IMG/VR virus record: IMGVR_UViG_3300032282_000786
Coordinates: 1 to 47,514 of that record
Length of the DNA stretch: 47,514 nt
Strand: one strand, 5' to 3'
Source: a virus
Positions 15,201 through 40,156 of this stretch are shown one piece after another. The notes under the pieces are model-generated. The model was given only the letters and a program-made list of their open reading frames with translations, made no database searches and was not told where the DNA came from. Each line of letters starts with the position of its first letter. Positions within the stretch are counted from its first letter, which is position 1. The translations under genes and the position numbers were made by a program.

Positions 15201-15624
15201 TGGAATGAAAGGCATGCGCTACATGGGTGAAGGTGCTTTGACGCTCAAGGGTGACCCAGTTGATGAAGACATTAATGCTTACAACTCCTTGATGCAAGTC
15301 ATTGGCTTTTCCCCTGCCGATTTGTCTAGCAACTACGAGAAAACTTCAGCAGCTAAGTCTTACGAAAAAGAAGTTGGTGCCCGTCGTGTGCAACTCTTGA
15401 ACCGGCATGACATGGCTAAGACTGCGGGTGATTCTGATTTGATGGCGGAAACCAAAGAGCAAATTCGGGCGTTTAACGAAACACATCCCAAAGATAAGAT
15501 CACTGGCGATACCTTGCAAAAGTCTGAGTCTTCTCGTAAGGCGGCTGAAAAGAACATGATAAATGGCGTCACATTCAACAAGAAGTTGCGTGGCGAAATC
15601 CAAGAGAAGTTCTTTGAAGACTGA
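9250..15624 (+). CDS. Giant internal virion protein with embedded HExxH zincin motif
   Basis: A 2124-residue protein, last of the plus-strand block. The N-terminus (1-60) is a short folded segment. Residues about 125-160 contain a Gly/Ala-rich hydrophobic stretch, and 380-900 are low-complexity charged linkers. Residues about 1085-1200 hold a zinc-metallopeptidase-like domain with H1140-E-x-x-H1144 in 'VIHETVHAAISH'. Residues 1300-2100 are long helical segments with hydrophobic stretches near 1665-1690. Size and position match the largest DNA-ejection protein of podophages (T7 gp16-like role) and 'polyvalent' multidomain phage proteins. Function is inferred; the motif is seen directly. Confidence 0.7.
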   Translation: MILNLPKLGPVQFSDELTPDQLSAELDRLAKKYEFDLPRSELSYGEMGSRALKRGTKQLGSTFGDLLPAMGASALGFDEYAAKQMEEAKATQDEINKYYAPQYRSTGDIKGIGDLPGFAFETVAEQVPNIATALIPGGIGGTIARRAGVAAAERAAMPLIESGATAAELARVAGRKGAEYATRGQNLGVFLGSYAQNAPEIFQNIYQETGELAPGAAMLFGSASAALDSVLPAQLLKSVTGPVKVGIVEKLLERSGMDKGLLRSVTAGMLKGSGTESLTEGMQEAISIAAENFVDKHESVFGSKEWNRIMESAVRGAVAGGAFGTVGGGAEAYRAGQERKGQYAQAMGQRQQRLLAGEVGRQSAEIENFGADQQQMQLPGFEIGPASGLLPPAQPAPPVLKEPKGKQLGLFGAEGLPTKEAEASKEKGDKAIANQERLAQQRESAEVKAAQAKLKAAIGELINTPTNLVGLANQPSPLAQTIAQAKGDLDTLAGKRGPKAEAIPEPRVVQKAAPLTPQQLPTTITDEILKGLGIGHTALLRKNKLLDGKDIANPADAAEVKRILEAYSENRSEPIRQKIDAYLSRPEFQGTQNVAGLNAEPSGGSASVDSGSNLVESTGANAGLKRDGNVLAEQNARSINAREEQSAPAITEVEDNQGKKIPGIYKQFPVSATQSGSITLGIKDGRLFPTYVENGGVEGTGAVTQAYKDAVDEAEQRGLQFTSDDSVTLDAARIYDRLQADGYEVTKNPDARLAESPEVVTPRLVTDNGSPVFTVKKGTPSGIETSKAEQATQEKQEEQPRKPLGKKAATDEKKAEQGASADTQERRTFVRAIDKLVDNLITSEIRKAEKAANLNTGEVQLPTTFVGTPIHDLLRLPRLLSEFLRLQEVIPKIEEAPQRAKNEKAFKQIAEGINRSGVFAKEAMDALNGGFRNDPEALLGVLNKAGTESLADFVSEKVEAAKQEVAARRKEDQPPEPKKSTNQLSKTRLKRAINEVYHNWTKSNKQRAAFEEMVNQGKGLEAIDQVLESLDPESRQNLKSELNFIYGQEMFLPVAIGPALDADGIALAQKGNFKDLLSHIINKTDNKLVRQILRKIQSLGINPKIVIGEVGANKAGSYNPTTNTIKLDPRFGLNHHTVIHETVHAAISHVLRSPNNKLTQTFVKFFEQIKNQMGTAYGGQDIQEFASELVGNPEFQALLKTIKAPRSENMFVNMMQAIGEFLGIRNAYKEGMKFINDAIDISSGIPPTPADEMFLSMGSAVNSAFNTVGSIGQNMPSLAGQTLENTKNMFSNVKDFGWMKTAMGMLRLDNINTLYGKELPSIQKLLDALELRNGMQEQRISAINKDYKRFSNIAKANPQAMSRMDDMAIDARLYEVDPLDANFKTTPANAAQYHRLRNIYTSLPSDVQDVYRDIRNFYMKSLNEYEQLLLKSVSPSLAAKLTQQFATRKKLTAYIPFLRDGDFWLEFADPATGERAAMAFPSIRERQQFIDSILKPQNIQSKSYRNLQNILFNPSSIPPTSFVGRIMADLQAQGASQQQLDSVYQAYLTLFPAESIAKQFLKSKNVLGMERDIVKGYGTTAVKWARKLSASEYSPQIDNALSEIKAQAENVNRLDVDAAAENILSQKEFLHNPTFNSFTQTATTLSYFEYIAGNISSALVNITSLPMLVWPTLGGKFGFDKTSSAMMNASKVAINGMEKDARYKKLYETMMNHGQLEHTMAREVLEGRRQKTTDFTGLKGRILDGLSIPFAATERYNRATTAIAAYDLARQSGMNEDAAIQYAVTTTKNLHTSGLAATAPKWMQNPIGRVFFTFKSFTWNSAFVMARAFHQAFKGETPAIQRAARRQLLGIYGMAMAFGGVKGMPFYGAVSTLATMLQALFGNDDEPFDFNEEMRDFFGELGYKGAFNYVTNIELSNRVGIATDLIFRDDPRGVAEHGYILSAMQQAFGPAGSYAVSVGNGVKMMKEGHVERGIEAMMPSFVRNGMKGMRYMGEGALTLKGDPVDEDINAYNSLMQVIGFSPADLSSNYEKTSAAKSYEKEVGARRVQLLNRHDMAKTAGDSDLMAETKEQIRAFNETHPKDKITGDTLQKSESSRKAAEKNMINGVTFNKKLRGEIQEKFFED

Positions 15625-18792: not shown

Positions 18793-19020
18793 TTAAGCTA
18801 ACTTCGCAATTAGCTTGTGCATCTTGTCTGCGTACTTACCTGACACAACGGTTTTTCCACGGAACCAAGAATATACAGTCACTCGGCTTACACCGAAGAA
18901 CTCAGCAACGTCAGTTACGGGTATATCCCTATCTAAACAGAGCATCCCCAACTTGACCCCGAGCAAGGTTTGATTAGCTTCCTTGATCTCTCGGGCAGTA
19001 AGTGTGGAATACCCTGCCAT
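18793..19020 (-). CDS. Small helix-turn-helix DNA-binding protein (Cro/C1 type)
   Basis: A 75-residue protein with a clear helix-turn-helix at about residues 34-57 ('VTDVAEFFGVSRVTVYSWFRGK'). It starts TAATG-fused to the SSB-like gene upstream. Size and fold fit a Cro-like regulator or a small replication-initiator accessory. Its position between SSB-like and primase genes is unusual for a lysogeny repressor, and there is no integrase nearby. Target sites are unknown. Confidence 0.8.
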   Translation of the reverse strand: MAGYSTLTAREIKEANQTLLGVKLGMLCLDRDIPVTDVAEFFGVSRVTVYSWFRGKTVVSGKYADKMHKLIAKLA

Positions 19021-29419: not shown

Positions 29420-29715
29420 AGTTCACCTCGGTTTCCTTGTAACTCACCCAAGCGTCTACCCAAGAGTGTGGCTTGTTCTGCAACTTCTTCAGAGATGCGG
29501 GTGTTAACATAATTGCGTAGCTTCGTGTTCCAGTGGTGTTTAAACACTTCATCAATTCGTTCGTTAATCTTGCCGTCCAACGCAATCGCAACTTCTACAG
29601 ACTTGTCGTCCAGTCCATCTTTGACTTCGTTGGTCACTTGCTCAAGCATGTCCTTGAGTACTTGCTCAGTATCTACTGGTGCGTTGTTCATCTCTGCGGG
29701 TTCTTTAGTGCTCAT
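29416..29715 (-). CDS. Acidic helical hypothetical protein
   Basis: A 99-residue protein, acidic N-terminus and amphipathic helices throughout ('VLKDMLEQVTNEVKDGL', 'EEVAEQATLLGRRLGEL'). No domain recognised; overlaps both neighbours by 4 bases. Confidence 0.7.
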   Translation of the reverse strand: MSTKEPAEMNNAPVDTEQVLKDMLEQVTNEVKDGLDDKSVEVAIALDGKINERIDEVFKHHWNTKLRNYVNTRISEEVAEQATLLGRRLGELQGNRGEL

Positions 29716-30005
29716 AGCTTCTCCAATACCTTGATTACCTTGTCAAACTCAGAGCCCATCTGCAAAGTTTTGTAGCGTAAGTTATCAGCCACATCATGCT
29801 TCTTGAGAATATTCTTTTCACACAACTTCTTTATGCGTGCGTGAGTGGTTGCTTGGGAAGCCCCCGAAAAATAGTCAACAAAGAACATGATAGTTACATC
29901 ATTCTCAAGGTGCACAAATTCACCCAACAGTTCTAGGTCAGTGGCATCGAGCCCATACTTATCACGCATTACCTTGAGTGCATGACTCATTTGTTGTATC
30001 TTCAT
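29712..30005 (-). CDS. Winged-helix (MarR-like) DNA-binding protein
   Basis: A 97-residue protein with a winged-helix layout: 'DLELLGEFVHL', then 'SGASQATTHARIKKLCEKNIL' (recognition helix) and a wing ending 'LRYKTLQMG'. One of three adjacent small winged-helix genes. RBS AGGAGG upstream. Could regulate phage or host transcription; target unknown. Confidence 0.72.
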   Translation of the reverse strand: MKIQQMSHALKVMRDKYGLDATDLELLGEFVHLENDVTIMFFVDYFSGASQATTHARIKKLCEKNILKKHDVADNLRYKTLQMGSEFDKVIKVLEKL

Positions 30006-30211
30006 TTATTCCTCCTAACAGAATAGTAGTTGTATCGTTGTCGGTATCGCAGTTCAATGACACCTTCTTTAACGAGGCGATCAATAAACCTCCATGCATG
30101 CCGGTCGCTTATGTGCAGTAACCTAGCAACATCTTTTATAGAGACTGCGTACTTACCATGCAGTATGCGAGTCAACCGCCTAGCAGTGCCATCAGTTGGT
30201 CGGCTTCTCAT
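30002..30211 (-). CDS. Small winged-helix DNA-binding protein
   Basis: A 69-residue protein: 'YAVSIKDVARLLHISDRHAWRFIDRLVKEGVIELRYR' is a clear helix-turn-helix followed by a wing. Basic throughout. The start lies 20 bases inside the upstream nuclease gene. A regulator is likely; target unknown. Confidence 0.72.
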   Translation of the reverse strand: MRSRPTDGTARRLTRILHGKYAVSIKDVARLLHISDRHAWRFIDRLVKEGVIELRYRQRYNYYSVRRNK

Positions 30212-30554: not shown

Positions 30555-30980
30555 TTACTTGGCTTCTAGATAGCTGATAACGGCAAGCGCATCAAAGTAC
30601 TTGCGTTCAAACTCTAGTGAGGATTGACGAGCATCACGCCATGCCCTTTCCATTGTGCCTACCTCTGTGCGTAGGCGTTCGTTCTCTTGCGCAAGTTTTC
30701 GCGCAACCTTGCCGATTGTGAGCGTTGTAGTCTCTTTGTTTGGGTCAAGAGCAGGGGCTTTATCAACTGGCTTATTAACATCTGTTAATACAAAGTTGCC
30801 AATTGTGTACACCCCATTTTCCCTTTTGATCTTGCCCTCATCTTTGAGCTTCCACAAACAATTGGATACGCTCTGATTGGGTATGCCTGTGATCTTGACA
30901 ATATCTTTAACCTTTGCGCCCTTGGGCATAGTTGTAGCCACAGCACGCAACACTCTAACACTTACTGGAATCTTTTTCAT
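30555..30980 (-). CDS. Winged-helix plus coiled-coil protein
   Basis: A 141-residue protein. Residues 5-60 form a winged helix ('KVKDIVKITGIPNQSVSNCLWKLKDEGKIKRENGVYTI'). Residues about 85-130 form a coiled coil for self-association. Between them (around residues 65-70, sequence LTDVNKPV) the DNA contains a perfect copy of the 16-bp palindrome. A dimeric DNA-binding protein is a reasonable candidate for the factor that reads palindromes, but this is inference. Confidence 0.75.
   Translation of the reverse strand: MKKIPVSVRVLRAVATTMPKGAKVKDIVKITGIPNQSVSNCLWKLKDEGKIKRENGVYTIGNFVLTDVNKPVDKAPALDPNKETTTLTIGKVARKLAQENERLRTEVGTMERAWRDARQSSLEFERKYFDALAVISYLEAK
30774..30789. repeat. Perfect palindrome copy ATTAACATCTGTTAAT inside a gene
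   Basis: Arms of 7, spacer 2, within the winged-helix/coiled-coil gene 30555-30980. It is the left-most copy found. Confidence 0.92.
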
Positions 30981-31272
30981 TTTTGCACTCTTTAAATAGA
31001 TTTTTTAATTCGATGTACTCATCGTAGTTGAGATACATCACCAATGTACCCTCTCCTGTTCTTCTACCTAGCCTCTCTCCTTTCTTTCCTTTATTAACAT
31101 CACACAGCCTTAATAAAGCTATGCGCTCTTCTACATAGTCAGGCACTTGCGTACCATGCATCAATGTATCAATCACGAATGAGTAGTTGTTTAAAACATC
31201 TATGTGATGCCACCCACCATCATCAGTCAAAACTACTCTCGCTACATACGGCTTTTTAACCCTCATATCCAT
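30955..31272 (-). CDS. Hypothetical protein
   Basis: A 103-105-residue protein. It has 'VARVVLTDDGGWHHIDVL' and a C-terminal 'LVMYLNYDEYIELKNLFKEC'. Two possible starts, ATG 31272 and ATG 31266. A near-consensus promoter abuts the first, so transcription would begin close to 31266. Overlaps the downstream gene by 26 bases. No function recognised. Confidence 0.7.
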   Translation of the reverse strand: MDMRVKKPYVARVVLTDDGGWHHIDVLNNYSFVIDTLMHGTQVPDYVEERIALLRLCDVNKGKKGERLGRRTGEGTLVMYLNYDEYIELKNLFKECKNEKDSSKC

Positions 31273-31301
31273 AATATATGGAACTCTTATAGGTTTGTCA
31301 A
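31273..31301 (-). promoter_or_regulatory. Sigma-70 type promoter, leftward
   Basis: Minus strand TTGACA (31301-31296), 17-base spacer, TATATT (31278-31273). Same boxes as the promoter at 20340-20368. The -10 touches the first ATG of the following gene, implying a leaderless message or use of a later start. Confidence 0.7.
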
Positions 31302-31312
31302 TAGTTTGAGAA

Positions 31313-32119
31313 TTAATTTTGTTCGGGTGTTGCGTAAATCCAATAGGTATTTGTACTCATCTTCATGCCGACCTCGGGGATGAATGTGTCAGCCTCAACC
31401 ATGCGTAACATAGCAACTTGTTGTTGCATGTCCTCGGGCATTTCTTCAGCGGTCTGATACGTACTTGTTATCTCTTTGTAAGTGGCTTGCACAGAATCAT
31501 CAGGATTGATAAAGACATGTGTTACTTTGCGAGACTCGTTCTTCCTACGCATGTGTTCGCTAAACATTGGCATGCCTTCTGTAACGATACGCTTAAACTT
31601 GTCTGAGTTAAACTCTACACCAAGAGCTACAAGATACTGTACTTCAGCAAATAATTCGGTTGGCTCTATTGCAACCACATCTCGTAGCTTCCACCTGAAC
31701 TCATCACGCCACTCGTCATCATGGCTACTGAACCTACTAGATGTAAGCCCTGCAATCTCGTTAGGTGTAAACGGCTTGAAGTAATCCTTGAGAAACTTGC
31801 CGACTTTCTTGGGGTCATTCGTTGTTCTTGAATAATAGTCATCGTTGTGTGCCGCAAACTTCTCGTTGTTAATTAGTCTGCTACGCACCTCGTATTGTTG
31901 TTTGTTGTTCTTGTCTGTACCCGCATCACGCAGTGTGCCCACGATGTTATGCACCTTCGTGTTCTTGGCAGGGAATCGACTGTCCTCAAAGATAACTAGT
32001 TCTCCATGATTACGGGCGGTAACATTGATCGGAAACCTACTGACTTGTGTGCGTCTGAAGTCTGCGATCAGTTGGGTGAAGATCGGGTTGATCTCCTCGG
32101 GATTTATTATGTTTAGCAT
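31313..32119 (-). CDS. Hypothetical protein downstream of the ATPase/VWA module
   Basis: A 268-residue soluble protein with no recognised domain. The N-terminal third is beta-rich ('FPINVTARNHGELVIFED'), the middle contains 'DDYYSRTTNDPKKVGKFLKDYFKPF', and the C-terminus is mixed. RBS AAGGAG 6 bases before ATG lies next to a palindrome copy (32131-32146). Its place directly after the DUF3150-like gene suggests it works with that module; inference only. Confidence 0.72.
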   Translation of the reverse strand: MLNIINPEEINPIFTQLIADFRRTQVSRFPINVTARNHGELVIFEDSRFPAKNTKVHNIVGTLRDAGTDKNNKQQYEVRSRLINNEKFAAHNDDYYSRTTNDPKKVGKFLKDYFKPFTPNEIAGLTSSRFSSHDDEWRDEFRWKLRDVVAIEPTELFAEVQYLVALGVEFNSDKFKRIVTEGMPMFSEHMRRKNESRKVTHVFINPDDSVQATYKEITSTYQTAEEMPEDMQQQVAMLRMVEADTFIPEVGMKMSTNTYWIYATPEQN

Positions 32120-32130
32120 CTCTACTCCTT

Positions 32131-32146
32131 ATTAACATCTGTTATT
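32131..32146. repeat. Palindrome copy ATTAACATCTGTTATT
   Basis: One mismatch in the right arm. It overlaps the stop of the 32145 gene and lies 11 bases before the next ATG, which has its own AAGGAG. Confidence 0.8.
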
Positions 32147-32978
32147 AAAACATTGACAGAATCTTATCGACCTCGGCTTTGACGCTGAGTCGTGTATCGT
32201 CATCCTTGCGTAAGTCACCAGCAGATACGCCTACAAGTGCACTCTCTAACTTCTTTCTCATTACCTCTAGCTTTGAGTCATTGGTTACATTCAACTTAGT
32301 GAGCAGTTCACACAAGTCCACAGCGTTGTTTACCAATGAGTCCCTAAAGATTTGTTTGTCTTGCCCTGCAAGTTTGTCACTCATCTTCACTAGACAGTCA
32401 TGTAACCTATCCCACGCATCTTGCATGGCGTCTGATAACTTGTTGTTGAAAAACTCCTCGTACTGTTGTTGTAGTTCAGCCTTACCCGCCTCGTTCACAT
32501 CAATGCGAAAGTCACCTACATCGGGTACTGGCAAGAACACATACTTAAACTTGAACTTACTCTCAAGCTTTGAAGCATGTGGATACTCCTCTGCATCAAA
32601 CAGATCACCCAACTGAAATGCTGCTGCCGTAACAAGTGTGTCGTAATCTTCCAAAAACCCTTGCACAGACTCAGCGAACTGGTTCTGGTAATCGCCTAGC
32701 GTAGCCTTGTACTCAAAGAAGTTTTTCATTGGTAACAAGCGTGAGCCACCATCAGACCATGGAAGCGTCTGCTCGTAATGCCAAATGCGTATCGCTGAAA
32801 CAAGTTTCTGCAACTCATCCAAGCGTTGCGTTCCTGCCAATAGTTTTTTGTGATAGTTACCCGCCCTCGCCTTGGTATGCTTGGCAGAATCAATCTCATC
32901 GGATACTTTCTTATCCATCTTGCGACCTGTCCACGCTGAGATGTTGAGGTCTACTAACATTGCACTGTTTTGAATCAT
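32145..32978 (-). CDS. DUF3150-like protein
   Basis: A 277-residue helical protein. The opening 'LNISAWTGRKMDKKVSDEI' and the following layout match what I recall of DUF3150 proteins, which travel with MoxR-like ATPase and VWA genes in phages and plasmids. Several coiled-coil-like stretches (about 160-245). RBS AAGGAG 6 bases before the ATG. Function of the family is unknown; a substrate adaptor or partner of the ATPase is a guess from gene neighbourhood. Confidence 0.7.
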   Translation of the reverse strand: MIQNSAMLVDLNISAWTGRKMDKKVSDEIDSAKHTKARAGNYHKKLLAGTQRLDELQKLVSAIRIWHYEQTLPWSDGGSRLLPMKNFFEYKATLGDYQNQFAESVQGFLEDYDTLVTAAAFQLGDLFDAEEYPHASKLESKFKFKYVFLPVPDVGDFRIDVNEAGKAELQQQYEEFFNNKLSDAMQDAWDRLHDCLVKMSDKLAGQDKQIFRDSLVNNAVDLCELLTKLNVTNDSKLEVMRKKLESALVGVSAGDLRKDDDTRLSVKAEVDKILSMF

Positions 32979-32988
32979 GGCACTCTCC

Positions 32989-33162
32989 TTACATTAAATG
33001 GTTCATTAGACCCAACAAGTAGTTGCAGTCTATGATTACTTGGGTTGCTAAATCTTTAGCATCTTTGTGTATGCTTTCATCCTCCTTAACATTGGCACAT
33101 CCTTCTAGCATCTTCTCTAGATTCCTTTGCAGTAGAATCTCAAAGTCTTTATTGCGTATCAT
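32989..33162 (-). CDS. Small hypothetical protein (57 aa)
   Basis: A 57-residue helical, mildly acidic protein with two Cys. Its ATG is 2 bases after a perfect palindrome copy whose centre gives AGGTG as ribosome site, and its stop is 10 bases before the ATG of the DUF3150-like gene. The signal placement identical to other genes here supports a real gene. Function unknown. Confidence 0.65.
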   Translation of the reverse strand: MIRNKDFEILLQRNLEKMLEGCANVKEDESIHKDAKDLATQVIIDCNYLLGLMNHLM

Positions 33163-33164
33163 TT

Positions 33165-33180
33165 ATTAACACCTGTTAAT
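33165..33180. repeat. Perfect palindrome copy ATTAACACCTGTTAAT
   Basis: Arms of 7, spacer 2. It begins 2 bases upstream of a start codon and its end supplies the first base of the VWA gene's stop triplet. Confidence 0.92.
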
Positions 33181-34376
33181 TAGTTGACACGAACAGTCTT
33201 ACCGATTTCCGATCTCATGTCGGTTGTGATACCCCACAGTGTTGGGCATGACCAACCCTCACCCCATGAGCACACATAACCATCAGTCAAGATCACTGCG
33301 CACTCAGCCTTGATTTTCTTATTAGTCATGTAGTCCACGATGCATTGTGGGTCAGTGCCTCCACCACCTCGGGGCTTCGTACTAGATATCAAGTTATCCA
33401 GTTGGTCTTGCTCATACTTCTCGTGCTGACATACTCGTGTATCCCAATACAACAAGTCGATACCCTCGGGCTTGACAGTATCGCAAATCTTCTTGACCTC
33501 ACCCAAGAACTGACCGACCTCCTCCGTACCGATAGAGCCTGACATATCAATACCCACCACGATACGACCGACTGACTCACCGATCATTGAGGGCATGTAA
33601 ACATCTTGTCCAATCCATCTGCGTGAGGGACGGCGCCATGTGCTCTCATCCTTATCTACACAGAATGATGTAACGAACTCACGCATCGCTTCACGCCAAT
33701 CTACCTTGGCTTCAAGTACCTCGCTGATCTCTCGGGGTACATTCGCACTCATCTTCCCTGCGAGAATCGCACCCTGACGCAGTGCTTGGTCAACGTCCTT
33801 GGCAAGTGCTTCCTTCTCCTCTTTGCTCATACCCTCTGCACTCTCCCAATCATGCTCATCTAGTCCATTGCCTATCTCGATCACTGGCACATCTTTGCCC
33901 TCTTGGTCACCGACTGTCTTGACATGAACAGTGCCACCCTTGGCTTCTTCCTTGATCATGCGATACACAGTACCCGCATCCAATCCCTTGTACTTGTGGT
34001 CAAGCAACGCACCATCGGGCAGAGACACAAAGTTGTTGTCACCATCCATGATCATTAAGTTGATCACATAGTCACATGCCATGTTAGCCATGTTTGGATT
34101 CTCTTTGAAGAGATGCCTCCATACAGTTGTATGCCTGAAAGCCTTGTGTAGATTCTCATGCAAGATCACACCCTTGCGTTTGTTAGCCGCTTGCTTAGCC
34201 ATGTAGTCACGACCATAGTAAGTGTTGCGACCATCGGTGCATGCGGTAGGCACATCGTCCTTCACCTCGGTGCGACCGATCATAATAATCCCTGAGTACA
34301 AGCAATACTTGGGGTCTTTCATTAAGGCAACGTGATCTTTCTGAATCAGTTGCTCGACTGTTAGTTTCGTAGCCAT
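33180..34376 (-). CDS. VWA-domain protein with metallopeptidase-like HExxH
   Basis: A 398-residue protein. The N-terminal domain carries H73-E-x-x-H77 ('LHENLHKAFRH'), a zincin-type motif as in DUF2201-like proteins. The C-terminal VWA domain has the MIDAS motif D277-x-S279-x-S281 ('GIDMSGSIG'), a Gly-rich TD loop ('PRGGGGTDP') and 'VILTDGY'. With the adjacent MoxR-like ATPase it forms the classic ATPase-VWA pairing used for chaperone-like remodelling or metal insertion (CobS/CobT-like logic). Start ATG is 3 bases after the palindrome-embedded AGGAG. Confidence 0.85.
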   Translation of the reverse strand: MATKLTVEQLIQKDHVALMKDPKYCLYSGIIMIGRTEVKDDVPTACTDGRNTYYGRDYMAKQAANKRKGVILHENLHKAFRHTTVWRHLFKENPNMANMACDYVINLMIMDGDNNFVSLPDGALLDHKYKGLDAGTVYRMIKEEAKGGTVHVKTVGDQEGKDVPVIEIGNGLDEHDWESAEGMSKEEKEALAKDVDQALRQGAILAGKMSANVPREISEVLEAKVDWREAMREFVTSFCVDKDESTWRRPSRRWIGQDVYMPSMIGESVGRIVVGIDMSGSIGTEEVGQFLGEVKKICDTVKPEGIDLLYWDTRVCQHEKYEQDQLDNLISSTKPRGGGGTDPQCIVDYMTNKKIKAECAVILTDGYVCSWGEGWSCPTLWGITTDMRSEIGKTVRVN

Positions 34377-34379
34377 GTT

Positions 34380-34395
34380 ATTAACTCCTGTTAAC
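34380..34395. repeat. Palindrome copy with embedded Shine-Dalgarno (ATTAACTCCTGTTAAC)
   Basis: Coding strand reads GTTAACAGGAGTTAAT, 3 bases before the ATG of the VWA gene; AGGAG is the ribosome site. Confidence 0.9.
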
Positions 34396-34398
34396 TTA

Positions 34399-35472
34399 TT
34401 AAAACAACCATTGGTTCTTCAACGCCCAATCTTTGAACTCTTTGTTCATCACACAGAACGCTTGCTTAGCTTGCGACTTCATCACACTGGTAGCAAATAA
34501 TGCTTGCCACTCCATGTCCATCCGTTGCAAGTAGGTCATCCACTTGGGCAGAGAATCTTTCTCCACTCTAGTGATCGCACTGAATACCAAGATACATTTA
34601 GCGACTGTATCGGTTGGCATCTTCGTAGTAGCAGGGCTTGCCATGATCGCATCCCATGTCGGCAACTTGTCCACCACAGTAAAGAACGCTTGCATATCAC
34701 GGCTTGCGCTCTCACCGATAGTGCCTGTCAGCATAGATATAGTCAGCGAGTCACCTAACTGAGCCCGTTGCTTTGCAATGTGACTAGCCTTCTCTAAACT
34801 TCTTGGTGTAACCACCGCACCCATACCAGCACGCGTTGGATTAAAGATATATGGATTGTCCTTTTGACTTGAGTCCGTATAACTTGCCAGTGCATGAGGG
34901 AACTGCTTGACCCATGCAATAACTTCGGGTGCTACATCGTTGGTGATCGCCCAATCAATCCACTCGTCAGCGTCAGGCTTGCGTACAGTTGTCATACACA
35001 CACGATTGCGAGCATGAGCTTCGAGCATGTCACCCACACCATCCGATAACAAGTTAGTCGTACCGAATACGATTGACCCCTTGGGCAAGTAGTTGTCACC
35101 AATGCGTTGCTCTAGCATGAGAGTCAATAGCACATTCTTGACTGCCTTCATCGCCTTGCCGATCTCGTCAAGCATCACGATCACTGGCTTGCCTGTGTGC
35201 ATCTTGAACCTAGCGTTAGGTGCAAATTTAGTTACCTTCATGTCCCCTGCCACCTCGGTGTATGGCAAAGCAAAGTCACCAAGGTCAAGCAAGGTGCAGT
35301 CGATGTAAGCAATCTCGTAATCGGGATACTGTTGTGCTAAGACTTTTAGCATGCTTGACTTGCCAATTCCTGGCTCGCCCTGACCGATTACAGTAACATC
35401 TTTACCTACGATGCCGATGCTCTTTGCGAAGTCTTGCAATGAGACTGTGTGACCAAAATTTAATACTGACAT
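34399..35472 (-). CDS. MoxR/CobS-like AAA+ ATPase
   Basis: A 357-residue ATPase. Walker A 'GEPGIGKS' at 32-39, Walker B 'VIVMLDEIG' at 97-105, sensor-1 'FGTTN' ending N140, and an Arg-finger-like 'ARNR' soon after. It would power remodelling of a target presented by the VWA partner. I chose ATG 35472 (AAAGAG upstream) over ATG 35526: the longer reading would run through a palindrome at 35491-35506 that elsewhere lies before genes, and a consensus promoter just upstream leaves an 80-base leader for 35472. Confidence 0.87.
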   Translation of the reverse strand: MSVLNFGHTVSLQDFAKSIGIVGKDVTVIGQGEPGIGKSSMLKVLAQQYPDYEIAYIDCTLLDLGDFALPYTEVAGDMKVTKFAPNARFKMHTGKPVIVMLDEIGKAMKAVKNVLLTLMLEQRIGDNYLPKGSIVFGTTNLLSDGVGDMLEAHARNRVCMTTVRKPDADEWIDWAITNDVAPEVIAWVKQFPHALASYTDSSQKDNPYIFNPTRAGMGAVVTPRSLEKASHIAKQRAQLGDSLTISMLTGTIGESASRDMQAFFTVVDKLPTWDAIMASPATTKMPTDTVAKCILVFSAITRVEKDSLPKWMTYLQRMDMEWQALFATSVMKSQAKQAFCVMNKEFKDWALKNQWLF

Positions 35473-35490
35473 AGCGCACTCTTTCTGCTG

Positions 35491-35506
35491 ATTAACAGCG
35501 GTTAAT
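35491..35506. repeat. Palindrome copy ATTAACAGCGGTTAAT in the leader of the ATPase gene
   Basis: Perfect 6-bp arms, spacer 4. It lies 18 bases before the start codon, inside the predicted 5' leader, and does not provide an AGGAG. Confidence 0.88.
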
Positions 35507-35526
35507 AAATTGATTTTCAGGTTCAC

Positions 35527-35553
35527 TAACAGTTGGTTACTTTACCACTGTTA
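35527..35553. repeat. Dyad TAACAGT...ACTGTTA at the predicted transcription start
   Basis: TAACAGT (35527-35533) and ACTGTTA (35547-35553) are perfect 7-bp arms around 13 bases that can pair further (GGT/ACC). Each arm resembles half of the dispersed palindrome. Position is about +1 to +25 of the promoter at 35559-35587. Confidence 0.65.
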
Positions 35554-35558
35554 TATAC

Positions 35559-35587
35559 ATTATAACCCATATCGGGTTCAATGTCAA
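35559..35587 (-). promoter_or_regulatory. Perfect consensus sigma-70 promoter
   Basis: Minus strand TTGACA (35587-35582), 17-base spacer, TATAAT (35564-35559): full consensus at both boxes. The spacer itself has an inverted repeat AACCC-N5-GGGTT. Start near 35552. It would drive the ATPase-VWA-DUF3150 block. Confidence 0.9.
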
Positions 35588-35621
35588 GCGTTTTAAAATA
35601 AATTTGAATTGTGGATTCCTT

Positions 35622-36512
35622 TCAGAGAGTATTGGTAACTGCTTTGCTCGATGGCTTCACATCTACAACTTTGTATATGTTCCTAGCTTGCTTGGCTATG
35701 TTGAACACACGACCACGCAACAGTGTTTGCGAATACTTATAGTCACTAAACTCACACTTGCGTTGCCATTCGTTTGCCTCACCCGCATTCATTTTTATCA
35801 TGCGAATCTCGGCTGTCCTTGATTGCTGATACTCATGGTCTTGCAGTAGATAGCACAAAATGTATAGATACTCTGACTCATCGCAGTTTGTAATGTGGTC
35901 ATACAGATGTGCATACCCGCTACCAGTGCCACCCTTACCCTCGATCTTGTCGAACTGATACCGACCCCAACTTGTTATACCGATACCCGCTTGCATGCGT
36001 GTCTCATGCATAATCCATCCGTCTGACATTTTCAAGAACGCCTCACCGAACTTTAGAAATGGCATTAAAGGTGCGCGTGCTTCTTTCGCTAAGGCACGAT
36101 CTACAACTCGTTGTTGGATAACAACTTCCTTATAAGGCTTGAAGCCTTGGGCATCGCCAAGATATTGCAACCGCAACTCATCATTGATAGGCAACAACTC
36201 ATCTCGGTTCTGAATCCACAGTTTGTTGTACCGCTTGAAGCATTTGAATGGACTGTGCTCATGGATAAACTCAGCAGTGGTTGGTGTTGCCCAATCGCCA
36301 CAGCGAATCACAATGTCACCATTGGGAAAATACTCAACACACTCGGTGTTGTAAAGCTTGGCGATGTAGGATTTCCCACCATGCCCATCCTGAGAAGTGA
36401 TAGTTTCCCAATCTCTTCTACGCTGACCGATGGGCTTGACCTCAACTGACCGCCCACGAATGGGCTTGGTGTTGTTGAACTTAGTCTCATAGAACTTATA
36501 GCTTGTATGCAT
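35622..36512 (-). CDS. Hypothetical protein
   Basis: A 296-residue soluble protein with no recognised domain; it contains 'YFPNGDIVIRCGDW' and a Tyr-rich 'YLYILCYLLQDHEYQQSR' region. Start ATG 36512 is fixed by the palindrome-embedded AGGAG 3 bases after which the codon lies; a longer frame to 36566 would overlap the upstream gene's end. The gene ends 35 bases before the promoter at 35587. Confidence 0.75.
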   Translation of the reverse strand: MHTSYKFYETKFNNTKPIRGRSVEVKPIGQRRRDWETITSQDGHGGKSYIAKLYNTECVEYFPNGDIVIRCGDWATPTTAEFIHEHSPFKCFKRYNKLWIQNRDELLPINDELRLQYLGDAQGFKPYKEVVIQQRVVDRALAKEARAPLMPFLKFGEAFLKMSDGWIMHETRMQAGIGITSWGRYQFDKIEGKGGTGSGYAHLYDHITNCDESEYLYILCYLLQDHEYQQSRTAEIRMIKMNAGEANEWQRKCEFSDYKYSQTLLRGRVFNIAKQARNIYKVVDVKPSSKAVTNTL

Positions 36513-36515
36513 CTT

Positions 36516-36531
36516 ATTAACTCCTGTTAAT
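36516..36531. repeat. Palindrome copy with embedded Shine-Dalgarno
   Basis: ATTAACTCCTGTTAAT; coding strand ATTAACAGGAGTTAAT then AAG and ATG (36512). Perfect 6-bp arms around AGGA. The upstream gene's stop is directly adjacent (36532). Confidence 0.95.
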
Positions 36532-37026
36532 TTAATTGTCGAACCAAAACACGAAACGAAACTCATTGGCTTGGGTCTCCTCGCCTACTCCTGACACCCC
36601 ACACATCTCTTGCAAGAACTGAAGCACTGCATAGTTCTTATCTACCTTCAATGTGTTTTGGTGATACTCGGTCATGGGCTCATCGTCCTCGATACTCTGC
36701 ACGCCATAGTAGTCATCCGCAAAGTCAGATGCACTCAGCCACGAATGGCTATGCCCATCACCCTCCCATGCATTAGCGAACATCTGCACCATCTCACTCA
36801 CATCATCGGGCAACCCTTGAGGGTCACGCCCATCACCACGCACACTCGCAAGTCGGGCAAAGAACTGGTAGTTGCGACCATTGACCACATAGAACATGTG
36901 CCCGAAGTTAGGCTTGTCATGCCCCCAAAACGCCTTGGAATGAATGGCATGGTCAAGGTTGCCCATGTACGCCCAATTACCCGAGGGCATCTTGCGCTCT
37001 ATAAATGTATGAATATCTGCACCCAT
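36532..37026 (-). CDS. Conserved 'GADIH' family hypothetical
   Basis: A 164-residue protein opening 'MGADIHTFIERK', then 'RNYQFFARLASVRGDG', 'PQGLPDDVS' and 'HSHSWLSASDF'. I recognise this motif series from hypothetical proteins widespread in phages and bacteria; its His and Asp residues suggest a metal site but no function is established. The start is 3 bases after a palindrome-embedded AGGAG. Confidence 0.8.
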   Translation of the reverse strand: MGADIHTFIERKMPSGNWAYMGNLDHAIHSKAFWGHDKPNFGHMFYVVNGRNYQFFARLASVRGDGRDPQGLPDDVSEMVQMFANAWEGDGHSHSWLSASDFADDYYGVQSIEDDEPMTEYHQNTLKVDKNYAVLQFLQEMCGVSGVGEETQANEFRFVFWFDN

Positions 37027-37029
37027 GTT

Positions 37030-37045
37030 ATTAACTCCTGTTAAT
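37030..37045. repeat. Palindrome copy with embedded Shine-Dalgarno and stop codon
   Basis: ATTAACTCCTGTTAAT. On the coding strand it encodes the last four residues (I-N-R-S) and TAA of the upstream gene while giving AGGAG for the next gene, 3 bases before its ATG. Confidence 0.95.
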
Positions 37046-37558
37046 TTGTTGACTGGCTCGCTGTGCGAGTTCCTGTTGTACTCGGGCTATTACCTCCCGT
37101 TGCTCACTATGGCTTAGTAGGTAAGACCTGCCCCGCATCGTTTGGTTGGATAGCTCTGTTTGTAAATCTAGCTTGCGCAACTCTATGGATAACTCCTCCC
37201 GCCTCTGCTTTGTGTCCCTCTCTAGTTCGTATGCGTGAAGGACTGCCTCGTAGTAGTTGTCTTTCAGAGACTTACGCTTCTCCTCTTTGACCTTCTCGAT
37301 CTTCATGTGTTCCTCGAACATGTTCATGGCGTGCTTACCTGCATCGGTCACGCACCAACCCTCGTACTTGACCCCATCTTCAACATAGGGAAAGGTGTTT
37401 ATCCATGCACTGCGCACAAGCACACCGAGGGTGCGGTTAGTGTTACCCGAGAACACTAGTTCTTTAATCGACTTGGTGTCCTCAATAGATTTCAACGCAT
37501 CGTATTGAACTTGCGATGTGTACCGCTTCAGTGCGGGTAGATGTTCGTGTCTCATCAT
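37031..37558 (-). CDS. Possible winged-helix protein with long coiled coil
   Basis: A 175-residue protein. Residues 1-80 may form a winged helix ('YDALKSIEDTKSIKELVFSG', 'GVLVRSAWINTF', 'GWCVTDAGKHAM' as in MarR-like C-terminal turns). Residues 85-170 are a highly charged coiled coil. The stop lies inside the palindrome. Could be a dimeric DNA-binding protein; not certain. Confidence 0.65.
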   Translation of the reverse strand: MMRHEHLPALKRYTSQVQYDALKSIEDTKSIKELVFSGNTNRTLGVLVRSAWINTFPYVEDGVKYEGWCVTDAGKHAMNMFEEHMKIEKVKEEKRKSLKDNYYEAVLHAYELERDTKQRREELSIELRKLDLQTELSNQTMRGRSYLLSHSEQREVIARVQQELAQRASQQINRS

Positions 37559-37641
37559 GGTCTCCAGTAATAAAGGTCAAGGGCTACCACCATCAGCCCC
37601 ACAAGGAATAGGATTCGTTCCAGTTTTTCCCACTTTGTCAT
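37555..37641 (-). CDS. Tiny single-pass membrane protein (28 aa)
   Basis: A 28-residue frame: charged start (MTKWEKLER), one hydrophobic segment (ILFLVGLMVVALDLYYW), short end. It has palindrome-embedded AGGAG 4 bases after which the ATG lies, and ATGA overlap with the next gene. It overlaps the last 65 bases of another candidate frame (37577-37777). The signals favour this one being translated. Function unknown. Confidence 0.6.
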   Translation of the reverse strand: MTKWEKLERILFLVGLMVVALDLYYWRP

Positions 37642-37777
37642 TTGTATTAACTCCTGTTAACTTGTTTGTGTATGTTCTACGAACCACTTCACGGCAATCC
37701 AGTCTGCTTGCAAACCATCTGCTGAGTCGTTGGCACTCGTAACCTTCCATCTCGTCTTGCAATAACCTCTCGGTCAC
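37577..37777 (-). CDS. Questionable small ORF, GTG start
   Basis: A 66-residue frame. For it: GTGA overlap with the upstream stop and GAGGTG upstream. Against it: it reads straight through a palindrome (coding K-L-T-G-V-N-T) and shares 65 bases with the tiny membrane-protein gene in another frame, and its C-terminal part looks unstructured. Possibly a true gene whose end overlaps the next. Confidence 0.4.
   Translation of the reverse strand: MTERLLQDEMEGYECQRLSRWFASRLDCREVVRRTYTNKLTGVNTNDKVGKTGTNPIPCGADGGSP
37646..37661. repeat. Palindrome copy with embedded Shine-Dalgarno (ATTAACTCCTGTTAAC)
   Basis: Coding strand GTTAACAGGAGTTAAT, 4 bases before the ATG of the 28-residue membrane protein. 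Confidence 0.9.
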
Positions 37778-37977
37778 AGCATCACCTCATCTAGTTGTAG
37801 GCTTGCCAGTGTCATGCTGAGATACACATAGCGATCACCTTGGGTTAACTTGCGCACCCAAACACCACGAGGGATGAAGTCCATCACCTCGTACTTGTGC
37901 TTGAATCCTTTGTAGTCCTTGCGTATCAGCGTGTCACCAATATGCACAGACTTGCCTGTTTTGCGATCAATAATCAT
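37774..37977 (-). CDS. Small beta-rich hypothetical protein
   Basis: A 67-residue protein: 'MIIDRKTGKSVHIGDTLI', 'YKGFKHKYEVMDFIPRGVWVRKL', strand-rich, like a small SH3-type barrel. TAATG fusion with the upstream gene. Unknown function. Confidence 0.68.
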   Translation of the reverse strand: MIIDRKTGKSVHIGDTLIRKDYKGFKHKYEVMDFIPRGVWVRKLTQGDRYVYLSMTLASLQLDEVML

Positions 37978-38180
37978 TACATGACCATCGCAAGCGTACT
38001 GAATAGCATAATAAGAAACGCAATATACAAATGCATTTGGCGTCTGAATATCACTTCACGCTGATAATCACCGAGATAAACTGACTGCCAAAAATCGCAG
38101 TCCCTATTCATATGATTACCAAGTGGCTTCTGATAATACTGACCGATCATTATCTTGCCTGTGTTGTATGCTTTGTCCAT
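37977..38180 (-). CDS. Small protein with C-terminal membrane segment
   Basis: A 67-residue protein. The N-terminal 48 residues are polar, the last 18 ('HLYIAFLIMLFSTLAMVM') form one hydrophobic helix, giving a tail-anchored layout. The start is 3 bases after palindrome-embedded AGGAG. Function unknown. Confidence 0.7.
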   Translation of the reverse strand: MDKAYNTGKIMIGQYYQKPLGNHMNRDCDFWQSVYLGDYQREVIFRRQMHLYIAFLIMLFSTLAMVM

Positions 38181-38183
38181 ATT

Positions 38184-38199
38184 ATTAACTCCTGTTAAT
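38184..38199. repeat. Palindrome copy with embedded Shine-Dalgarno and stop codon
   Basis: ATTAACTCCTGTTAAT; supplies TAA for the 38195 gene and AGGAG for the next gene (ATG at 38180). Confidence 0.95.
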
Positions 38200-38509
38200 A
38201 TTCGCCATCACCGAACGCATACTCACGCTCGAGCATGCACATGCGTCTCCAATACTCTTGCAGTTGTGCCTTGGCTTGGTCGATGTTGCCATTGTGCCCA
38301 TCGAGAACTTCTTGGTAATCGGCACAGTCGAACGCCTCATAGACCCAATGCCCACCTTCCTCGTAGTTGGCGTTGGCAAAGTCTTGCAGTTGTTTGATTG
38401 CCGTAGACTTGTTGTCAGATGTTGCGGTGTACCCCGTTGCGCTGGTTTCGTTACCCACACTTGTCACAAACTGTTGTGGTGTGTGGTTGGTTGCTTGTTG
38501 TGCACTCAT
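38195..38509 (-). CDS. Hypothetical protein
   Basis: A 104-residue protein. Ser/Thr/Gln-rich N-terminal third, then a helical C-terminal part ('AIKQLQDFANANYEEGGHW', 'QAKAQLQEYWRRMCMLER'). Start 3 bases after palindrome-embedded AGGAG. No domain recognised. Confidence 0.7.
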   Translation of the reverse strand: MSAQQATNHTPQQFVTSVGNETSATGYTATSDNKSTAIKQLQDFANANYEEGGHWVYEAFDCADYQEVLDGHNGNIDQAKAQLQEYWRRMCMLEREYAFGDGEY

Positions 38510-38512
38510 TTT

Positions 38513-38528
38513 ATTAACTCCTGTTAAT
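38513..38528. repeat. Palindrome copy with embedded Shine-Dalgarno and stop codon
   Basis: ATTAACTCCTGTTAAT; supplies TAA for the 38524 gene and AGGAG for the 38509 start. Confidence 0.95.
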
Positions 38529-38736
38529 TTCTTTGCTGTTTGTTGTTGATACCAGTTAGCAGACTCATGTCTGTGACAACTATGTAGTTGGACTTGTGCA
38601 TGGGCACAAGTGTGTGCTTGACCTGACGAGCGAGCTTCTCACCACACGCCATGCAGTGCTTGAAACCGAGAGCCCATCGAGCAAGTAGTATGTCCTCGCC
38701 ACAGTTTCGGCAGTGATTGTGTGCAATATCGTTCAT
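38524..38736 (-). CDS. Zinc-ribbon protein
   Basis: A 70-residue protein with C9-x-x-C12 ('HCRNCGED') and C28-x-x-C31 ('HCMACGEK'), a two-knuckle zinc ribbon. Such phage proteins often bind nucleic acid or RNA polymerase, but no specific family is clear. Weak RBS (AAGG); the ATG overlaps the stop of a doubtful upstream frame (ATGA). Confidence 0.78.
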   Translation of the reverse strand: MNDIAHNHCRNCGEDILLARWALGFKHCMACGEKLARQVKHTLVPMHKSNYIVVTDMSLLTGINNKQQRN

Positions 38737-39098
38737 GTTTTGCCTTGTTTGTTCCAGTTGTTCCGCTGTGTTCCAGTGGGGTGAAATGGACGAAATGCTA
38801 ATGAAATCATAGTGTTAGCCGCTTCGTTGTCAGCCTGTTCCAATGTTCCAGTGTGATATTGGGTTTGTAGAAGGCTCGTCCGATCTAATCTACCCGAATC
38901 ACTTAACATTGTAAAGTATTTTGCGATTCGTCTACCTTTATATATATTATGGAACAATGGAACAAACATACTAAAAGTGGTAAAAAAGCCTTTAGAATCA
39001 ACGACTTGCTGTGTTCCAGTCGAACGGAACATTGCGGAACAAGCGGAACAACATACTTTCGTATTAACATCTGCTAATAAATTGGTCAGCAACAACAT
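38733..39098 (-). CDS. Doubtful ORF across the iteron region
   Basis: A 121-residue frame. For it: ATG 39098 has AAGGGG 6 bases upstream, and its stop overlaps the next ATG (ATGA). Against it: it runs through all but one of the GGAACA/TGTTCC repeats, a palindrome copy, a candidate promoter and an AT-rich tract, with Phe/Thr/Asn-rich coding that shows no fold. I lean towards non-coding. Confidence 0.3.
   Translation of the reverse strand: MLLLTNLLADVNTKVCCSACSAMFRSTGTQQVVDSKGFFTTFSMFVPLFHNIYKGRRIAKYFTMLSDSGRLDRTSLLQTQYHTGTLEQADNEAANTMISLAFRPFHPTGTQRNNWNKQGKT
38887..38915 (-). promoter_or_regulatory. Candidate promoter overlapped by a degenerate palindrome
   Basis: Minus strand TTTACA (38915-38910), 17-base spacer, TAGATT (38892-38887). 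The -35 is covered by CTTAACATTGTAAAG (38902-38916), itself a near-perfect dyad related to the dispersed palindrome. It would drive the zinc-ribbon gene and the block after it. Confidence 0.45.
39063..39078. repeat. Palindrome copy ATTAACATCTGCTAAT
   Basis: One mismatch in the right arm. It lies at the edge of the iteron-like region, not next to a secure start codon. Confidence 0.8.
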
Positions 39099-39148
39099 CA
39101 TCATCCCCTTGCTACTATCATGAAAAGATCGGAACAGAAAATTGAGAC

Positions 39149-39174
39149 AAAGAAAAAGCCCACCGAAGTGGGCT
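39149..39174 (-). terminator. Rho-independent terminator with UUCG tetraloop
   Basis: Minus strand AGCCCAC-TTCG-GTGGGCT followed by TTTTCTTT. The extra-stable C(UUCG)G loop and T-run make it strong. It sits 19 bases after the stop of the 39193-39717 gene, making that gene a separate transcript. Confidence 0.9.
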
Positions 39175-39192
39175 AATTCCGTCAGGTGTGAA

Positions 39193-39717
39193 TCACTTAT
39201 TAACAAGTGTTAATACAGCGTTGAGGGCTTTTGTGGTTTCCACAATGTCGAAGTCTGCATCAGTTGACTTCTCGCACTTCTTGATAAGGTCAGCGATCTG
39301 CACTTGAATTTTGGTTTTCAAGCTTGTTGGCTCGCTCTCACTTGCTTCTTTTGGGAAAGCATATTTCACGATGCGTGAAAAGTAAGTGTCACATGTTGCC
39401 CTTGCGTCTTTTTTGGCTTGGTTGACGTATTCCCAAGTGTCACGTTGACCCGCATCGAGGGCATTAAATTCTTTTGAATTCTTGCGTGGCAATTCAGTGT
39501 TTAAAGCTTTAACGTGACGCTTATCAATGGCGGGTAAAATAGCGTCTGCGATAAACTGCGCTTTAACTTCAAGCATAGCAGTTTCAGTGCCAAAAAACGC
39601 ACGCACTTTTTGACCCGCAGTTTCCCATTTATTAACAGTGTTAATATCTTGGCGCACTGCGTTTGTGCATGCTTCTACTGTTACTGAATAATCGGTTGAT
39701 TGAATTGAATTAGTCAT
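39193..39717 (-). CDS. Unidentified early protein, monocistronic, flanked by palindromes
   Basis: A 174-residue, largely helical soluble protein with no recognised domain: 'VEACTNAVRQDINTVNKWETAGQKVRAFFG', 'AQFIADAILPAIDKRH', 'TKIQVQIADLIKKCEKS'. It has its own candidate promoter, its own terminator, and two perfect palindrome copies inside the coding sequence plus others upstream. It would be the first leftward gene transcribed. A regulatory or host-takeover role is plausible; being the palindrome-binding factor itself is a testable guess. RBS AAAGAG upstream. Confidence 0.8.
   Translation of the reverse strand: MTNSIQSTDYSVTVEACTNAVRQDINTVNKWETAGQKVRAFFGTETAMLEVKAQFIADAILPAIDKRHVKALNTELPRKNSKEFNALDAGQRDTWEYVNQAKKDARATCDTYFSRIVKYAFPKEASESEPTSLKTKIQVQIADLIKKCEKSTDADFDIVETTKALNAVLTLVNK
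39199..39214. repeat. Perfect palindrome copy ATTAACAAGTGTTAAT inside a gene
   Basis: Arms of 7, spacer 2, near the 3' end of the 39193-39717 coding region (codes L-T-L-V-N). It cannot be a ribosome site. Confidence 0.92.
39631..39645. repeat. Perfect palindrome copy ATTAACAGTGTTAAT inside a gene
   Basis: Arms of 7, spacer 1, near the 5' end of the 39193-39717 coding region (codes I-N-T-V-N), 72-86 bases after the start codon. Confidence 0.92.
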
Positions 39718-39741
39718 ATATCTCTTTCAGTTGTTTATGTA

Positions 39742-39758
39742 TGTACCAAATCGGTACA
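39742..39758. promoter_or_regulatory. Dyad TGTACC-N5-GGTACA at the predicted start of the 39717 transcript
   Basis: Perfect 6-bp arms with a 5-base spacer, 24 bases before the ATG. Differs in sequence from the dispersed palindrome, so a second operator or a leader hairpin. Confidence 0.6.
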
Positions 39759-39763
39759 GTTCT

Positions 39764-39791
39764 ATATTACCCCACAGTGTTAATAATTCAA
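39764..39791 (-). promoter_or_regulatory. Candidate promoter with palindrome half-site in its spacer
   Basis: Minus strand TTGAAT (39791-39786), 16-base spacer, TAATAT (39769-39764). The spacer holds ATTAACACTGTG (degenerate palindrome), the classic place for a repressor. Boxes are 4/6 matches, so moderate support. Confidence 0.45.
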
Positions 39792-39799
39792 AGCATTTT

Positions 39800-39814
39800 A
39801 TTATCAGTGTTAAT
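39800..39814. repeat. Palindrome copy ATTATCAGTGTTAAT upstream of the 39717 promoter
   Basis: Spacer-1 form with one mismatch (left arm ATTATCA). It lies just upstream of the -35 of the candidate promoter. Confidence 0.75.
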
Positions 39815-40156
39815 AAATCCCAGCCCATTAACCGACACCCCACCCCCCAAAATACCAGTTGAGACTCCGCCCTCCGATCCTACATATTAATATGCACGTC
39901 CAATCCAATCATTTTCAAATCAGTAATGTGCGCGCACGTTACTTGCGGCGTTCACTACACAGTGCAGAGTTAAAAGCCGGAACAAGACATACCAAAAGAT
40001 CTTTACACAACACATTTATCCCCAGGATACTTATTGCCGCTTTTTTGAAACACCCCCCGTCACCTTTTTATTTCGCTACCCCCCACCCCAATATTTGCAA
40101 AATTTTGAAAACACTGTACACTTTGCAAAACCAAACGCAGGAGCCACAAACCGCTT

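Follow-up and report, generated by a model that had tools for sequence, protein, structure and literature searches.

Dispersed palindromic sites in the early region of a phage genome and their association with the first early gene

Palindromic sites in the early region

The window, the whole 47.5-kb IMG/VR virus record analysed in this study, carries genes for terminase, an 842-aa portal protein, GroES, DNA polymerase, primase, and a 2124-aa DarB-like protein (9250-15624), the C-terminal part of which matches DarB-like antirestriction families. The terminase and structural genes run rightward, and the early genes run leftward from approximately 39.7 kb. The nearest named phages by TerL showed 46-58% identity. 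No tyrosine or serine integrase was found among 18 related records, several of which exceed 60 kb, and these integrase-less relatives may have an extrachromosomal prophage state.

A scan of the whole 47.5 kb identified 14 sites of the form ATTAACA-N1/2-TGTTAAT with two or fewer mismatches, spanning 30774-39814, and no further site with a gap of 1-2 nt and two or fewer mismatches. An earlier reading made from the sequence alone (the sequence-only reading) had listed the same 14 coordinates, with 0-2 arm mismatches and no copies elsewhere in the window, and was right on each of these points, though its count of five perfect 7-bp inverted repeats was one too high. Four sites are perfect 7+7 repeats (30774, 33165, 39199, and 39631), those at 32131, 35491, 36516, 37030, 38184, 38513, 39063, and 39800 have one mismatch, and those at 34380 and 37646 have two. 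Dinucleotide-preserving shuffling of 30700-39900 yielded a mean of 0.12 sites and a maximum of 2 in 100 shuffles versus the 14 observed, which bears out the earlier assertion that the density is beyond chance. The pattern ATTAACNNNNGTTAAT with one or no mismatch occurred at 12 places in the whole record, and the reversed control pattern at none. Lone exact 16-mers in viral contigs are uninformative by themselves, being too frequent in AT-rich DNA.

Most copies lie at the starts of leftward early genes, and six enclose the Shine-Dalgarno (SD) sequence at the palindrome centre. The commonest form on the minus (coding) strand was ATTAACAGGAGTTAATAA(n)ATG, that is, ATTAACAGGAGTTAAT followed by ATG within 2-4 nt, which places the SD sequence centrally in the palindrome. 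All sites are given here on the minus strand. ATTAACAGGAGTTAAT with an embedded SD was found at 36516-36531, 37030-37045, 38184-38199, and 38513-38528, preceding the ATG at 36512 and the starts at 37026, 38180, and 38509, respectively. GTTAACAGGAGTTAAT, also with an embedded SD, precedes the start of a nuclease gene at 34376 (site 34380-34395) and, at 37646-37661, an ATG 4 nt further on. ATTAACAGGTGTTAAT (33165-33180) lies 2 nt ahead of the start at 33162, and AATAACAGATGTTAAT (32131-32146) lies 11 nt ahead of the start at 32119, immediately upstream of the SD. ATTAGCAGATGTTAAT occupies 39063-39078, and ATTAACAGATGTTAAT (30774-30789) lies within the gene for a winged-helix protein (30555-30980). 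The sites lacking an SD are ATTAACCGCTGTTAAT (35491-35506), in the leader of the ATPase gene approximately 53 nt downstream of a perfect, sigma-70-like TTGACA-17-TATAAT sequence (35559-35587, minus strand) ahead of that gene; ATTAACACTTGTTAAT (39199-39214), which spans the final codons of the first early gene; ATTAACACTGTTAAT (39631-39645), within the same gene; and ATTAACACTGATAAT (39800-39814), immediately upstream of its probable promoter.

The first early gene (39193-39717, minus strand) encodes a 174-aa protein of a family termed A1, the proposed array-binding regulator. Its probable promoter, TTGAAT-16-TAATAT (39764-39791, minus strand), was read by eye and is absent from the list produced by the promoter scan; the spacer of this promoter contains a degenerate additional half-site. 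A terminator-like hairpin (39157-39174, minus strand) is located immediately 3′ of the gene.

Arrays and first genes in related phages

Eighty loci were gathered by their ATPase (69-97% identity), and nearly all carried an array of equal density, with sites in similar places and a palindrome that differed by lineage. At least 10 palindrome types were present in relatives overall. The clade of the window has ATTAACA-N2; others have GTTATCA, ATTAAAC, GATAACA, ATAAACA, or TACTAAA, two types are unrelated (ATACTGTC-N-GACAGTAT and ATAATGTC-N-GACATTAT), and CCTAACA and ATAAAAACGTTTTTAT are further types. Across types the palindromes measure 14-19 bp, with a spacer of 0 to 3 nt depending on class. 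The places are conserved while the letters change: when the operator type of each record itself was counted from -120 to +90 of a gene start, it was found near the start of the first gene in 47 of 50 records, of the homologue of the gene at 35622 in 52 of 67, and of the ATPase gene in 57 of 77, where 11% was expected in each case. Conservation of site positions in related phages, which the sequence-only reading had proposed as a check, was thus observed well above chance.

The 35622-36566 gene beside the ATPase gene is a universal early gene that shows 23-38% identity in most relatives and evolves much faster than its neighbours. It was rejected as the regulator: it is present in L157, which has no array, and absent from L190, which has one. 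L157 itself has a TerL 84% and an ATPase 76% identical to those of the window, and carries neither an A1 or A2 gene (see below) nor a detectable array.

Widening the search by TerL added further arrays, including CCTAACA-N0-2-TGTTAGG sites accompanied by a third family of first genes (A4), and relatives of the A2 family in a distant TerL clade (L353, L334, L336, and L365), again with GTCnGAC sites. Additional arrays (CCTACA, GGGTTACA, GCTAACA, and GGTAACC) were located upstream of TerL in L370, L380, L378, and L397, the first genes of which match none of A1, A2, and A4. L348 has two A4-family genes (16-537 and 1583-2110), each near CCTAACA sites; this pair is possibly a duplication en route to a change of specificity. 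No comparable array was found in the isolates DSL-LC04, HTVC023P, HTVC027P, and 023Pt_psg01.

Planktothrix phage Pag-Yong1 (accession no. OL906435; TerL 46% identical) carries at least 24 copies of GGTTCAG-N-CTGAACC, many of them 22-23 bp ahead of leftward gene starts; of the cultured phages, it is the nearest one with an array of this kind and the best test case. Its array also enters the late region, so that the confinement to the early region noted earlier holds for the window but does not extend to this isolate. The first gene of Pag-Yong1 (UMO76074.1) was found in no phage records other than OL906435 (L344), OQ594354, and PP438419. All three are 65,014 bp, have a 100% identical first gene and a second place matching it, and bear different cyanobacterial host names; they may represent a single phage, perhaps one that infects a co-cultured bacterium.

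The first gene predicts the palindrome type. A1 goes with TTAACA-like types; records with a GTCnGAC operator lack it and have the unrelated A2 in the same slot. In records that cover 3 kb or more of the early side, A1 was accompanied by TTAACA-type sites in 35 of 37 (two without an array), A2 by GTCnGAC in 15 of 16 (one without an array), A4 by CTAACA in 5 of 5, and the singleton first gene of L190 by AAAAACGTTTTT (1/1), with no mismatch overall; the A4 figure is partly circular because the family was defined from CTAACA-array loci, a circularity from which the prospective scan described below is free. In every one of the 56 records that combine an array with a known first gene the two agreed, and the best of 20,000 label shuffles, which ignore phylogeny, reached 39. 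In a TerL tree (a quick tree with some long branches), A2 and A4 each occurred in two separate clades, with their own operator type in both. A tree-aware sign test provided 2 to 6 independent pairs, approximately five of which pointed the same way and none the opposite way for A1 (p ~0.06 at best). Among 26 records without a known first gene, 21 lacked an array and five contained palindromes that were either similar or of another kind, one being probably low-complexity; these five records indicate that further first-gene families probably exist. Several genes correlated with operator type in a partial Mantel test of early proteins with ATPase controlled; distance correlation was rejected as a test for the regulator, as A1 was not singled out over other early genes.

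The relatives L174 and L190 are 99.2% identical in TerL, 99% in the nuclease, and 95% in the ATPase. L174 carries A1 and TTACTAAATCGTTTAGCAA-type sites. In L190 the first gene is unrelated and encodes 258 aa, and the sites at the matching positions are of the GTAAAAACGTTTTTAT type; around the site that follows the nuclease gene, the flanking sequences of the two are almost the same. The two also differ in the homologue of the 35622 gene, which is absent from L190. The first gene of L190 had no second copy in viral contigs. In a prospective test, viral contigs were searched with the A4 protein only, and arrays were called with an unsupervised palindrome finder (at least 4 copies). This yielded 44 loci, 39 of which were non-training. 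An array was found in 31 of these 39 contigs, which include some near-duplicates of each other, and in 30 of the 31 it was CTAACA/TGTTAG, in up to 20 copies; the remaining one had ATAACAATGTTAT, a near variant (ATAACA).

A candidate reader of the array and its alternatives

A terminator-like hairpin was found 3′ of the first gene in 48 of 53 A1 and 23 of 25 A2 cases, versus 3% of all called gene ends, and an own-type operator was near the first-gene start in 44 of 53 and 21 of 25, respectively. The first gene therefore appears to be monocistronic and self-regulated. A1 generated no match in Pfam, PHROG, or PDB, and no credible HTH family match was obtained among 32 A1 and 9 A2 members; the N-terminal part of A4 is not basic. 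The AlphaFold2 model of A1 was all-helical and confident (pLDDT 88.6), that of A2 was weaker (pLDDT 73), and fold searches of PDB with either gave no significant match. Profile comparison detected no homology between A1 and A2, and only a weak C-terminal match between A1 and A4 (probability 47%, E 2e-4); the latter two may have a C-terminal domain in common. None of 86 pattern matches to A1 in GTDB genomes was confirmed, and no A1, A2, or A4 protein was found in 50,697 phage records.

We consider it probable (about 0.7) that the first-early-gene product binds the dispersed palindromic operators and represses the early genes and itself, and that gene and array are replaced together. The palindromes would be DNA operators read by the 39193-39717 product, probably as a dimer or higher oligomer, a dimer being suggested by the symmetry of the sites. 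With its own operator-flanked promoter and its own terminator, the first gene probably regulates itself. Repression is proposed from the position of the sites and the apparent autoregulation: initiation would be blocked at the first-gene promoter, and at leaders and start regions an elongation roadblock, occlusion of the start region, or both would turn the early genes down. The array could instead activate genes or organise DNA. The lineage would have repeatedly swapped the first gene for one of another family or for a divergent version, and all sites of the array would have changed accordingly, resulting in related phages with different specificities, like heteroimmune phages. The pattern suggests a dispersed on/off switch, the lock and key of which are replaced together.

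The array could be read by one of the winged-helix or XRE-like phage proteins (window 29712-30005, 30002-30211, 30555-30980, and 18793-19020) instead, with the first gene inherited alongside, for instance as an antirepressor or a co-regulator. These are the only early-region proteins with recognisable DNA-binding domains or HTH-like sequence; A1 and A2 showed no recognisable DNA-binding fold. The winged-helix and XRE-like proteins differ from one operator class to another, the 30002-30211 product correlates with operator type in a pool of all classes, and neither the L174 nor the L190 locus includes the winged-helix genes, which are thus beyond that comparison. However, the array type was predicted prospectively by the first gene alone, the self-standing operator-flanked unit is the first gene and not any of these genes, and homologues of 29712, 30002, and 30555 were found in none of the 44 A4 loci, of which 20 extend as far as the nuclease gene, with limited coverage beyond it. 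A winged-helix or XRE-like reader is therefore considered unlikely, and the HTH proteins, which the sequence-only reading had proposed to test for binding, give way to the first-early-gene product, which lacks a recognisable HTH, as the likelier binder.

Two further explanations dispense with a repressor bound to DNA operators. The position of most window copies at starts, the six that enclose the SD, and the 6-bp hairpin that ATTAAC-AGGA-GTTAAT could form would also fit start-associated RNA hairpins that hide or present the SD and are read by an RNA-binding protein or the ribosome. The hairpins predicted for the window are nevertheless weak, at -0.5 to -2.1 kcal/mol and 0 for the 39800 site, and two other classes form none; the spacer length differs between classes (0 to 3 nt), many relatives have their SD beyond the palindrome, and sites also occur within genes and beside a promoter. 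Recognition as DNA is favoured because of these weak or absent hairpins and site locations, and an RNA role is very unlikely. A role of the sites in organising or partitioning the phage DNA, as partition, packaging, nucleoid-like, or replication sites, instead of in gene control is at least as unlikely. Partition systems too combine dispersed palindromes with one dedicated protein, and the Pag-Yong1 array reaches the late region, but the sites are associated with gene starts and leaders, occur within the window only in the early operon, and include an operator that flanks the promoter of the regulator itself.

Repression by the first-early-gene product through a dispersed array, an operator system without description in the literature searched, is thus the best-supported reading. 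The sequence-only reading had suggested an undescribed operator system, and this part of it stands with corrections on layout, binder, and confinement. The puzzle of dispersed operators is how at least 10 sites and their reader change together, and since the states before and after such a change coexist in phages with 99% identical terminase, the question is testable. In a wider proposal, to which we give somewhat less than even odds, non-integrating phages would repeatedly refill the regulator slot heading the early operon with unrelated or chimeric proteins that have undescribed DNA-binding folds and rewrite 10-20 operators in concert, as a lytic superinfection-control or immunity-type system under strong diversifying selection. 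If the array is immunity-like in phages without a detectable integrase, repressor-based exclusion would not be limited to classical temperate phages. Undescribed regulator families with readable specificity (approximately 10 palindrome types linked to protein sequence) may also be useful as orthogonal DNA-binding proteins.

Comparison with known dispersed-site systems

Streptomyces phage phiC31 also has palindromic repressor sites scattered over its early region, the conserved inverted repeats. In cluster A mycobacteriophages (L5, Bxb1), temperate phages with immunity, repressor bound at the stoperators halts the elongation of transcription. Stoperators comprise more than 20 short repressor sites at promoters and in short intergenic gaps (PMC6550527, PMC9283540); each is asymmetric and 13 bp long, most share one orientation, and the repressor, which has an N-terminal HTH, binds them as a monomer (PMC9283540), and site motif and repressor co-diverge between subclusters along with heteroimmunity (PMC6550527). 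The window sites likewise lie at promoters and in short intergenic gaps; unlike stoperators, they belong to palindromes of 14-19 bp, the putative regulator has no recognisable HTH and gives way to entirely different families, and a search for integrases found none.

The SAS/ESAS elements of cluster K mycobacteriophages occur in 11-19 copies, in non-structural genes only, at translation starts and with an SD-like sequence; the ESAS inverted repeats differ between subclusters, and the SAS is an asymmetric 13-mer, GGGATAGGAGCCC, with no known reader (PMC3203893). The window sites resemble these in being limited to the non-structural region and mostly at or just before starts. They differ in that the start-associated element is itself palindromic and is not GGGATAGGAGCCC, one type is exchanged completely for another, and there is a candidate gene for the regulator. 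The sequence-only reading had held that sequence and layout match neither the SAS nor the stoperators; the palindromic sequence is indeed unlike both, but the layout resembles both. On the features compared, the array belongs to neither the cluster A nor the cluster K system.

In the Bacillus prophage SPbeta, an integrated temperate phage, SPBRE repeats in various intergenic regions are bound by MrpR, which has a tyrosine-recombinase fold and no classical HTH (PMC10516654). A non-HTH phage protein can therefore read a dispersed array, and the two systems are alike in having repeated elements and one phage regulator, putative in our case, without a classical HTH. Unlike MrpR, A1 and A2 have no significant PDB fold match; the tyrosine-recombinase fold gave no match for A1 with its confident model, and A2, with its low-confidence model, matched Cre only at E ~6. 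Taken together, the best reading is that the array would act like stoperators or SPBRE sites, without belonging to the former and probably without belonging to the latter.
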